59,467 bases of DNA from Alphaproteobacteria bacterium (GTDB taxonomy: Bacteria; Pseudomonadota; Alphaproteobacteria; Rhizobiales; Xanthobacteraceae). The DNA is taken from contig VGEP01000028.1 in NCBI GenBank assembly GCA_016869215.1, forward strand, positions 1 through 59,467. The letters are read 5' to 3'. The stretch's first letter is position 1, and each line of letters starts with the position of its first letter. Position numbers and translations under genes: made by a program. Below, piece after piece: positions 12,607-33,228 of the stretch. A model generated the notes under the pieces. That model was not told the DNA's origin and made no database searches. It was given only the letters and a program-made list of their open reading frames with translations.

Positions 12607-12894
12607 TCACTCTACGACTTTCGGCACCACGAAGTAATTCCCCTCGCGCGCCGGGGCGTTCTTCAGCACCGCCTCGGCGTCGCCGCCGTCGGTCACCGCG
12701 TCCTGGCGCTTCTTCATCGCCATCGGCGTGACCGAGGTCATCGGCTCGACGCCGTCGACCTTCACCTCCGACAGTTGCTCGACGAAGGCCAGGATCGAAT
12801 TGATCTCGCCCCGCAGGTGCTCGACCTCGTCCTCGGCGACCGCAATCCGCGCCAGATGCGCGATGCGGCGGACGGTTGCGGCGTCGACGGACAT
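12607..12894 (-). CDS. gatC: Asp/Glu-tRNA amidotransferase subunit C
   Basis: 95 residues; the small belt subunit that wraps around GatA and GatB and stabilises the complex. The N-terminal helical block [13 protein letters not shown] and the middle [22 protein letters not shown] are the standard GatC motifs, followed by the RQDAVTDGG region and a C-terminal FVVPKVVE that inserts into GatA. GAGG lies seven bases before the ATG. First gene of the gatC-orf85-gatA operon; its promoter must lie in 12895-13000 on the minus strand, back to back with the plus-strand promoter at 12964. Confidence 0.95.
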
Positions 12895-12963: not shown

Positions 12964-12992
12964 TTGACTATGTTCCTATATTGCGGAATATT
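12964..12992 (+). promoter_or_regulatory. Sigma-70-type promoter in front of the structured region
   Basis: TTGACT (12964-12969), a 17-base spacer, and AATATT (12987-12992) give a good match to a housekeeping promoter in otherwise very GC-rich DNA. The AT-rich core also holds a small inverted repeat (ATATT GCGG AATAT). Transcription would start near 13,000, just before the foldable region. Confidence 0.6.
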
Positions 12993-12999
12993 GTCTTGT

Positions 13000-13390
13000 C
13001 CCATCCACCGAGGGCGTTTTCATGAGGCGTCATGCGAGCGGGATGGGATGCGGCGCCCGCGGGCCGGTTTCGCAGACCGGCACCCGGGAGGCCCGGGTCA
13101 CCGTCCGCTCTCACTACGGAGAGCCGCCCTTCGGTGGGCTGAACGGGACAGGACGAAGGCGGCGAAAGCCGCTGGATCGGAAGGGCGAAGAGTCTTCCGT
13201 CCGAGTCCCGGAAGCTACGGTCCCGGCGCCCAAAATCCCGCGGTGAAGCGCCGAAAGGCGCGCCGGCTCGCGTCATGAGCCGGCGGTCCCAAGTTGGACC
13301 GGCCCGACCGCAAGGCGGGCCACGCGGTGCGGCGATCCGCACCGGCGCCTGTCGGCGCTTCACCCCCTCGGGCTTTCGAGGGTGGAGAAA
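13000..13390 (+). ncRNA. Candidate structured non-coding RNA, family not recognised
   Basis: Downstream of a good promoter, about 390 bases carry a dense nested set of complementary segments. CCGAGGG (13008-13014) can close the whole element with CCCTCGG (13365-13371). A perfect 13-bp helix (13242-13254 with 13352-13364) encloses four hairpins: 13261-13285, 13285-13300, 13301-13321 and 13325-13344 (8 bp, CGAT loop). Upstream, CGGGAC (13144-13149) and GTCCCG (13205-13210) enclose a GAAA-capped hairpin (13159-13172) and another at 13178-13199; further hairpins lie at 13063-13081, 13082-13098 and 13107-13124. I checked for the conserved cores of RNase P RNA, tmRNA, SRP RNA and TPP, FMN, cobalamin and glycine riboswitches and saw none. 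A 74-codon frame from 13022 has a plausible ribosome site but an arginine-rich, unfamiliar product. Confidence 0.45.
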
Positions 13391-13546
13391 AAAGACACCG
13401 GCGACCGGGCGCCGTGACAAAACCCCGGGCGATGAAACGCGGCCTCACGACAACATGGAGGGAGTGATGCGCACAGCGCGAGCGGCAGACGCACTTATCC
13501 CTCCTCGCACGAAGCGTGGGAATGGATGGAGCAAGCGTTGACGGCG

Positions 13547-14623
13547 CTATCCTGCCATCCGCTGCATCAGCGCCTGCGCTTCCGCGGCGAGCGCTCGTGT
13601 CAGTTCGCGCGCCGGCATCGCGCGGCCGAGCGGGGCGGCCTGCCCCGACGACATCGGCGAAAAATCGGCGGAGCCCTGCGCCTCGGCCTTGGCGCGCAGC
13701 GGCGCGAGCGCGCCTGCGGCCAATGGAAACTCCGGCGCCAGGTCACTGATCGGACCGACTTCGCGCACCAGCCGGTTGACGATGTAGCGCGCCGGACGGC
13801 CGGTCATCAGGTTGGTCTGCACGGTGCCGTTGCTCGGCAGCGACTTGAGCGCGGCGCGATGGAACGCGGAAATCTTCGCCTCCGGGCAATGCATGAACGC
13901 GGTGCCGATCTGAACGCCCGCGGCGCCCAGCATGAAGGCCGCGGCGATGCCGCGCGCATCGCCGATCCCGCCGGCAGCGATCACCGGCACCTTCACGGCG
14001 TCGACCACCTGCGGCACCAAGGCGAAGGTTCCCACCTGCGCCGCCAGGTCGTCGGTCAGAAACATGGACCGGTGACCGCCGGCCTCGTAGCCCTGCGCAA
14101 TCACGGCGTCGACGCCCTGCCCTTCCAGCCAGCGCGCTTCCTCAGCGGTCGTGGCCGAGCTGATCAGCTTGCAGCCCGTCGCTTTCACGCGCTTGAGCAA
14201 TCCGGCTTCCGGCAGACCGAAATGGAAGCTGACGATCTCAGGCTTCAGGTCTTCCATTATGCCGCAAAGCGTTTCATCGAACGGCACGCGGTTTGTGACC
14301 GGCACCGGCGCGGCCGGATCGATGTTCAGTTCGCGGTAATAAGCGTCGAGCCGCTCCCGCCACCGCACCTGATGCGCATTGTTGAGCGCCGGCGGCTTGT
14401 GGCTGAAGAAATTGAGATTGACCGGCTTTCGCGTGCCGCCGCGAATCCGAGCCATTTCCGAGCGGACCTGGGCCGGATCGATCATTGCAGTCGGCAGCGA
14501 GCCCAGCCCGCCCGCCTCGCAGACTTCAATCGCAAGCTCCGCATCCATCGCGCCCGCAATCGGCGCGAGCAGGATCGGATGCTCGATCCGAAACAGGTCG
14601 ATCAGTCGTCGGTCGGGCCACAT
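13547..14623 (-). CDS. Nitronate monooxygenase (2-nitropropane dioxygenase family)
   Basis: FMN-dependent TIM-barrel enzyme of 358 residues that oxidises alkyl nitronates or related toxins. Start at 14623 (MWPDRRLIDLF) is preceded by AGGGAG at good spacing; an in-frame start at 14641 is weaker. Characteristic segments: HPILLAPIAGAMDAELA at the start, the phosphate-binding VIAAGGIGDARGIAAAFMLG, GVQIGTAFMHCPEA, and QGYEAGGHRSMF carrying the catalytic-type histidine. The closest subgroup is class I NMO. Convergent neighbour is the structured region; the physiological substrate is unknown. Confidence 0.88.
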   Translation of the reverse strand: MWPDRRLIDLFRIEHPILLAPIAGAMDAELAIEVCEAGGLGSLPTAMIDPAQVRSEMARIRGGTRKPVNLNFFSHKPPALNNAHQVRWRERLDAYYRELNIDPAAPVPVTNRVPFDETLCGIMEDLKPEIVSFHFGLPEAGLLKRVKATGCKLISSATTAEEARWLEGQGVDAVIAQGYEAGGHRSMFLTDDLAAQVGTFALVPQVVDAVKVPVIAAGGIGDARGIAAAFMLGAAGVQIGTAFMHCPEAKISAFHRAALKSLPSNGTVQTNLMTGRPARYIVNRLVREVGPISDLAPEFPLAAGALAPLRAKAEAQGSADFSPMSSGQAAPLGRAMPARELTRALAAEAQALMQRMAG

Positions 14624-14778
14624 GGCCGGCTCCCTGCGCAATTTCGCGGCGCACTATGCCGCCTGCCGCCGCGCGCGCCTAGCGGCCCGGCCATCGCAGC
14701 CTTCGTCCCCGGCGGAGCGGCGTTTCAGCGCCGGCGAATGAGGTTGTATCCAGGCCGCCGAAGAACGATATAGACGCC

Positions 14779-32831: not shown

Positions 32832-32907
32832 GTCGTTTCGGGAGTCTCCGCGCAGCCGGCTCGATCGCCGACGCGGCAGGCTCAGCGGCAATGTCGAGAA
32901 AAAAGGT

Positions 32908-32962
32908 GGCCGGCCGGGAGCGATGTCATGAGGAGGCCACTCGCATCGCTCCCAGGCCGGCC
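32908..32962. repeat. 18-bp near-perfect inverted repeat in the rpmG-pleD gap
   Basis: GGCCGGCCGGGAGCGATG (32908-32925) is complementary to 32944-32962 with a single extra base, leaving an 18-base loop that contains GAGGAGG. It lies between the convergent rpmG and pleD genes, beyond the rpmG terminator. Possibly a pleD terminator on the minus strand, although no T-run follows. The rest of 32,840-33,228 shows nothing I can support; an 83-codon frame starting inside the loop looks non-coding. Confidence 0.45.
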
Positions 32963-33228
32963 GAACCCCACGGACTCAAGAGATGCGGCGGACCTGAGCG
33001 AACCGCAGGGTTATCGTTTTAGGAGAGCAACCGCGCAGCGATCCGAACGATCGAACCGAGCCTTCCAGATACCGGCCGCCTCCCAAGTGCGGTCACGCTA
33101 TCGGATCGACCGACGAAAGCAATTTGATAACGCCCGTTTACTCTGTCGTTCGCGCGTCAACGTAAAGCGTTATGGTTGACGCGCGCAGGCGCGTCCGGAT
33201 TCGGCGCAAAATGGCGTGGAATCTGGAT

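Follow-up and report, generated by a model that had tools for sequence, protein, structure and literature searches.

Relation to described repeats and large RNAs

The nearest known kind of element to the one described here is the dispersed, partly structured repeat, such as bcr1 through bcr18 of the Bacillus cereus group. Those are described as interspersed repeats that are intergenic, multicopy and partly transcribed; bcr1–bcr3 are MITE-like, and bcr10 and bcr18 have conserved secondary structures and are predicted to be functional RNAs (PMC3446304). Compared by that description only, the present element is also intergenic and multicopy, but it differs in its size (∼430–480 nt), in having two pseudoknots and a promoter-like sequence of its own and, in many copies, a boxA tail; the two copies tested had no terminal inverted repeats, and the inverted repeats found in them are internal. 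In the related genus Bradyrhizobium, Br-REP1 and Br-REP2 repeats and BjsR sRNAs have been reported (PMC5082802). These are likewise intergenic repeats or multicopy sRNAs, but the REPs are short and palindromic and differ in sequence, and nothing on this element was found in that paper.

A different likeness is to ROOL, GOLLD, and OLE, which are large ornate bacterial RNAs (PMC12286853). The RNA described here shares with them a long, intricate, noncoding character. ROOL, GOLLD, and OLE have Rfam models and usually occur once per genome or phage, whereas this RNA is dispersed in many copies and matches no Rfam family. The last relevant system is the antitermination site of rRNA leaders (boxA, bound by NusB/S10); the consensus TGGCTGTTTGAAAATTGAATCGG in which many copies of the element end resembles the rRNA leaders of this lineage, but here it follows a long RNA other than rRNA, at its 3′ end. 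In E. coli, RNA is shielded from Rho by translation and, where untranslated, can be shielded by boxA with NusB/S10, and the boxA/Nus complex promotes rRNA maturation (both PMC4807359). The boxA-dependent repression of suhB indicates that boxA can also reduce expression (PMC5725501). A word search of PMC8632094 gave no occurrence of the element, and none was found in searches of an open-access library; the family is apparently undescribed.

Features of the locus

The window is the whole stretch of DNA that was analysed, 59,467 nt of contig VGEP01000028.1 from an alphaproteobacterium of the Xanthobacteraceae. The locus lies between two genes on the minus strand, gatC (12607–12894) and a nitronate monooxygenase gene (13547–14641), names that we adopt as assigned in the earlier note. 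The sequences support the interpretation of 12964 to ∼13430 as belonging to a family of large (∼430–480 nt) noncoding structured RNAs that is dispersed and mosaic, and whose copies each have a promoter-like sequence, two covarying pseudoknots and a very conserved 13 bp helix. Its parts are as follows.

12964–12992, plus strand: promoter-like sequence; TTGACT (12964–12969), 17-nt spacer, AATATT (12987–12992)
12999–13048, plus strand: 5′ hairpin P1; TCCCATCC (12999–13006) pairs with GGATGGGA (13041–13048), inner stem-loop between them
13008–13014, plus strand: 5′ strand of the long-range pairing, CCGAGGG; covaries with 13365–13371
13049–13241, plus strand: middle domain, type A; closed by helix P2 (13050–13053 with 13238–13241)
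13242–13364, plus strand: P3 domain; 13 bp helix (13242–13254/13352–13364) around a variable set of hairpins
13365–13382, plus strand: 3′ hairpin, CCCTCG/CGAGGG; 13365–13371 doubles as the 3′ strand of the long-range pairing
13399–13428, plus strand: H-type pseudoknot; CGGCG (13399–13403)/CGCCG (13410–13414) and CCGGG (13405–13409)/CCCGG (13424–13428)
13457–13541, plus strand: tail of the window copy; no boxA, Shine-Dalgarno-like GGAGGGAG, ATG at 13467 and a 24-codon frame

The promoter proposed in the earlier note has the sequence claimed for it, and its TTGAC recurs 5′ of the 5′ domain in other copies (45 of 122; five control windows taken from these extracts average 2.2 of 122). In other copies the same position is occupied by a second promoter-like class, ATCCCCGC ... 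TTANNNT; an origin of this class from an rRNA promoter was considered and rejected on comparison. Many copies in genome G003 (L229–L258) have another type of upstream sequence with the palindrome TTTGC-N6-GCAAA at about −48 to −1, and the Afipia copies have GGGGATNCNAATCCCC-like palindromes upstream; by eye, both look like operator sites for putative regulators.

Structure and covariation of the RNA

Positions 12999–13436 fold at −261.6 kcal/mol (z −7.45), and none of 100 shuffled sequences was equally stable, so the density of helices does exceed chance expectation, as the earlier note had suspected. The test named there, compensatory change among relatives, gives abundant examples in P1, P3, the long-range pairing and the 3′ pseudoknot. 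Both sides are changed at 14 of the 35 predicted pairs of the 5′ domain (alignment A2, 17 copies) and at 9 of 26 in the P3 domain (alignment A3, 18 copies). The 13 bp helix of P3 is present exactly as first proposed, was recovered in an inverted-repeat scan as 20-nt arms that are 95% complementary, and covaries in A3, where its outer pair goes from GC (12 copies) to AU (6) and another pair from AU (9) to GC (8). The five-way junction of four hairpins that had been drawn inside it exists in some copies, but the set is shorter in others. The middle domain comes in two types. RNAalifold finds 114 consensus pairs over the whole RNA in 8 type A copies, 37 of them changed on both sides, and 104 in 7 type B copies, with 27 changed on both sides. 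The three-way junction with a GAAA-capped arm belongs to one of these types and is missing from the other; P2 is longer in other copies than in the window copy, whose single-sequence fold pairs part of the middle domain differently from the consensus.

The 7 bp pairing of 13008–13014 with 13365–13371 was originally taken for a closing helix. It is present and it covaries, with both strands altered in other copies (CCAAGGG/CCCTTGG, CCGGGGG/CCCCCGG, and GAAGGG/CCCTTC) and a mean longest helix of 6.07 bp over 82 copies, whereas 200 permutations average 5.27 and never exceed 5.54. It is not, however, a simple outer closure, since its 5′ strand lies within P1 (12999–13006/13041–13048); it crosses P1 and is therefore a pseudoknot. 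Its 3′ strand has two mutually exclusive partners, the distant 13008–13014 and the local 13377–13382, and a switch between them is thus possible.

The 3′ pseudoknot at 13399–13428 is an addition to the helices first listed. At least 9 bp of it can be formed in 57 of 74 copies, whereas after mononucleotide shuffling an average of 12 do so, although some of the pairings in divergent copies are plainly due to chance and lie elsewhere in the tail. In alignment A4 its covariation score is 0.147 as opposed to 0.066 when shuffled, a value that none of 500 shuffles reaches, in a test biased towards structure because its 33 tails were chosen from 37 extracted ones that had been picked for a readable pseudoknot; the second stem is misaligned in some rows. 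Double-changed pairs in the same 33 tails are not above those of the shuffles (5 against 4.1; 158 of 500), though the remaining measures of this test are.

A 74-codon frame exists at 13022–13246, and it was rejected as a protein-coding gene since neither its start codon nor its frame is conserved among 8 aligned copies: only two have the ATG, the others having TAG or CGG, the frames shift and stop, and the second ATG-bearing copy has an in-frame stop. The view that the region holds no convincing protein therefore stands. A covariance-model search of Rfam 15 at gathering scores found no family at the structured-RNA locus, and a permissive search of the locus gave only matches at E 1.5–5. This search, which the earlier note had called for, bears out its statement that the cores of RNase P RNA, tmRNA and common riboswitches are absent. 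Together, the compensatory changes, the unconserved frame and the lack of an Rfam match support its central proposal, a putative promoter-driven, highly structured noncoding RNA.

Copies and distribution

The locus first singled out proves to be one of many dispersed copies. A similarity search of its own genome with the region gave 11 matches on 9 contigs (self and fragments included), and similar DNA is found in 25 of 61 genomes, counting its own and those of relatives. A covariance model of the 5′ domain built from 17 copies (R1) hits the own genome 12 times, in 11 cases with E no higher than 2.5e-11, and matches 17 of the 39 genomes of relatives on which it was run, with 48 matches in G003, 40 in G004, 23 in G006, and 17 in G010. 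The other 22, complete genomes of the same family among them, have no R1 match, and the RNA is therefore not generally essential. In a wider sample of the order at least 6 of 199 genomes match, other families of the order among them, and in a sample of the class at least 1 of 385 (the own genome); both counts are too low, since filtering was stricter for these two samples and no more than 18 and 9 candidates per genome, respectively, were scored. With a model of the 3′ module (R2) the counts are 17 for the own genome and 52 for G003, and 11 of 15 chosen genomes have a match.

When named genomes were scanned with a pattern, at least 114 stretches were found. Among the matches listed, the carriers include Afipia (A. 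massiliensis and A. birgiae), Rhodoplanes, Pseudorhodoplanes, Rhodopseudomonas rhenobacensis, Phreatobacter, and Pseudolabrys, as well as unnamed Xanthobacteraceae, mostly metagenome-assembled. On this evidence, Xanthobacteraceae-like Rhizobiales that carry the family have between one and ∼50 copies each. For the analyses of tails and neighbours, 162 matches were reduced to 138 copies by removing those repeated over 200–300 nt. Plasmid and phage collections gave no match to the element. A variant lies on one viral contig (L193, 880–1390, minus strand), directly adjoining a reading frame for a putative site-specific integrase. In G003, 34 of 52 positions among the matches listed are on the leading strand of replication, a weak bias.

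Borders and insertion sites

The extent of the repeated unit was defined by aligning 30 copies with their flanks from the one-contig genome G003. Column conservation is 0.87–0.97 over the first 260 nt, 0.66–0.94 to +420, ∼0.64 to +480 and mostly 0.25–0.6 beyond; upstream it is 0.64–0.71 from −40 to 0, the promoter site, and 0.14–0.47 farther out. Pairwise identity has a median of 0.87 in the body (0.44–0.98) and of 0.33 and 0.36 in the two flanks, where one downstream pair reaches 0.70. With body and promoter stretch conserved and flanks unconserved, the repeated unit is promoter plus RNA, and its many intergenic copies among unrelated flanks are what is seen in bcr-like dispersed repeats. Some copies do share flanks between species (L139 and L080) and hence occupy the same place.

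Orthologous sites show the element absent, reversed or partial. At the window's site in G010, gatC and the monooxygenase gene are ∼75 bp apart and the element is absent, although this junction is too diverged for any target duplication to show; at L127 the same gap contains an element in the opposite orientation. In G004 (L040, reverse complement of ∼97–1564) the gap holds a different insert of >1 kb, and so it seems to accept other DNA. R1 matches none of the six same-genus monooxygenase loci (L039–L044), of which only L043 and L040 have gatC nearby. Only the 3′ third of the element is present at L048 (G000 contig 32, ∼1490–1700), at the end of a gene that by our own reading is presumably a hydroxyacid dehydrogenase; this could be either a truncated insertion or the result of a later deletion. 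The copies are also mosaic. L002 and L004 have nearly identical 5′ domains with differing pseudoknots and tails, and copies before serS retain the 3′ module beneath a different 5′ half.

The gap between tatC and serS was compared at 30 family loci and L077. The R1 element is present only in the own genome (L199) and L077, and a variant with another 5′ half in L200, L201, and L203; in all five genomes it points towards serS, and tatC was recognised across the gap in four of the five, the exception being L201. No element was found in the other tatC–serS loci, seven gaps having been inspected and the rest covered by R1, two profile searches and a motif. As an ancestral site tatC–serS was rejected, since the element or its variant is present at five loci only and has differing 5′ types; it looks like repeated arrival, each time oriented towards serS. 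No convincing recurrent protein was found among called genes within 600 bp of the copies. The largest clusters have 11, 10, and 6 loci. On inspection, those of 11 and 10 resemble chains of frames that are repeat-derived or antisense, and that of 6 is composed of chained sensor kinases, two of its loci matching kinase domains in Pfam. From the sequence comparisons above, this dispersed RNA family is probably mobile.

Tails, boxA and the direction of the next gene

The word TGTTTGA of the tail consensus is present in 44 of 114 family tails and in 3 of 765 control windows. All four rRNA leaders examined (G033, G003, G032, and G034) contain a similar word 220–248 nt before 16S, GGGCTGTTTGACA in three and CGCTGTTTGAAA in one; a 16S match was obtained in four of eight genomes searched, the own assembly being among those that gave none. 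We take this word to be the boxA of the lineage by its position and its likeness to the E. coli sequence. By eye, a small hairpin lies just before boxA in the G003 tails, much as boxB precedes boxA. Neither the window copy nor any of 21 G004 copies (20 plus L017) has boxA. A Shine-Dalgarno sequence with ATG is found in the tails of 9 of 20 copies in G004 and 21 of 68 others, whereas among control windows 43 of 526 have it; where a copy is codirectional, it may be no more than the start of the next gene.

Gene strands were called with a codon model at the 115 of 138 copies with enough flank, of which 114 have a downstream gene. The next gene is convergent for 38 boxA copies and codirectional for 5 (n = 43, this definition of boxA needing one base more than that which gave 44), whereas boxA-less copies precede 22 convergent and 49 codirectional genes (n = 71). 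Fisher's test gives p 1.8e-9, and such values are too good because related copies are not independent; the Mantel–Haenszel result within genomes is 4.13/0.125, a ratio slightly affected by one genome having entered under two labels (G008 and JAKFYI), which leaves the pooled table unaffected. As a check on the strand calls, 20 of the 108 called genes within limits were scanned with Pfam; 15 have a match on the called strand and 5 have none there, the called strand being the only one scanned for those 5. The association is weaker in G003 alone (convergent in 13 of 18 copies with boxA and 5 of 12 without; p 0.14). In G004, where none of 21 copies has boxA, 13 next genes are convergent and 8 codirectional. 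In G010, boxA is present in just one of six additional copies, L334, which precedes a codirectional gene 635 nt away, and the window copy has a convergent next gene, the nitronate monooxygenase gene, yet lacks boxA.

The G004 tails often carry a Shine-Dalgarno-like run and an ATG instead. Twelve of the 13 convergent G004 copies have some frame of >150 codons, in nine of them the frame of the tail start codon itself. These nine frames are 164 to 689 codons long, three of them running off the end of the stretch; none of the nine has a Pfam match, and the opposite strand has one in seven (a post hoc result, with a one-sided p of ∼0.004 by our own arithmetic). The frames of L302, L310, L318, L308, and L304 run for 449–689 codons from the tail ATG antisense to genes that bear domains (TctC, TPP-enzyme, ACP-synthase III, and L-PSP). 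A tenth G004 frame that was scanned, at L322, proved to be a real sense gene.

Possible function and alternative explanations

We tentatively favor, at somewhat less than an even chance, a reading in which each copy would be a unit of transcription and the family would owe its spread to copying. RNA polymerase would start at ∼13000, make the folded RNA and continue past its 3′ end, and the tail would then determine whether Rho can stop it. Many copies would add the lineage's own rRNA boxA, chiefly where the next gene is convergent and the extended transcript would be an untranslated antisense RNA; from others, transcription would enter a codirectional gene, or the tail would start a translated frame by means of a Shine-Dalgarno sequence and ATG. 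The two kinds of tail correspond to the two shields against Rho known from E. coli, translation and boxA, from which we infer that the shields may be placed by context. The folded body may protect the 5′ part as a stable RNA, perhaps the substrate for the spread, and the window copy would be a boxA-less member aimed at the nitronate monooxygenase gene from its 3′ side. Copies, bordered unit, structure, noncoding character, promoter-like sequence, boxA and gene context are the evidence behind this reading, and promoter activity, 3′ end and read-through are its predictions. The boxA and orientation data fit just as well an alternative in which boxA is the default tail and has been lost or purged before sense genes, where read-through would be harmful. 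A bolder version, which we regard as rather unlikely, would make the element a mobile RNA cassette, composed of a promoter, an armoured RNA and either boxA or a translated antisense frame, that serves to drive untranslated or antisense transcription and takes polymerase through neighbouring convergent genes despite Rho.

Two other explanations share much of the evidence. The copies could encode a trans-acting or structural noncoding RNA, an RNP or RNA-only particle that is only incidentally multicopy, with a processed 3′ end and boxA serving folding or maturation. The long, pseudoknotted, covarying fold, the R1 matches in other families of the order and the flanks common to different species (as at L139 and L080) agree with this, as does the role of the boxA/Nus complex in E. 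coli rRNA maturation, and RNA maturation may be the main job of boxA (PMC4807359). We nevertheless consider it unlikely, since a stand-alone RNA would not need a tail that goes with the direction of its neighbour, and R1 is absent from 22 of 39 relatives that include complete genomes of the same family. A purely selfish, nonautonomous mobile element that depends for its movement in trans on an unlinked transposase or reverse transcriptase is also doubtful. Its fold would be a recognition substrate and the tail differences by-products of selection against boxA before sense genes; high copy number, unrelated flanks, the empty site in G010, the reversed element at L127, the 3′ fragment in the gene end at L048 and the exchange of 5′ and 3′ parts are all as such an element would have them. 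Against it, covariation across families argues for a function of the RNA, two copies were tested for terminal inverted repeats and had none, and no neighbouring protein recurs convincingly.

A riboswitch-like, cis-acting 5′ leader of the downstream gene might account for the 49 of 114 copies that lack boxA and have a codirectional next gene, in some of which family members a called start codon follows the pseudoknot by ∼10–100 nt. This reading is mostly refuted and very improbable, because 60 of 114 copies, the window copy included, face a convergent gene and the downstream genes have no convincing common family. The region is GC-rich and has its 74-codon frame, but chance hairpins, REP palindromes or a small protein gene have a practically negligible probability in view of the z score of −7.45, the covariation and the unconserved frame.

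What the family offers is a large RNA with two covarying pseudoknots, present in up to ∼50 copies per genome and outside all Rfam 15 families. The link between boxA tail and gene direction is a direct genetic handle on Nus factors outside rRNA, and it bears on how noncoding transcription survives Rho. If the antisense reading were true, these dispersed elements would be founded on rRNA-type antitermination and would amount to an antisense system, natural and genome-wide, of a new kind beyond bcr-like repeats.

Other RNA genes in the window

Elsewhere in the window, Rfam identifies two other RNA genes, both on the minus strand: a tRNA gene at 1056–1144 (58.2 bits) and, at 32903–33013, a member of RF02500 (the Atu_C6/EcpR1 sRNA), whose score of 88.6 bits is above the gathering score.
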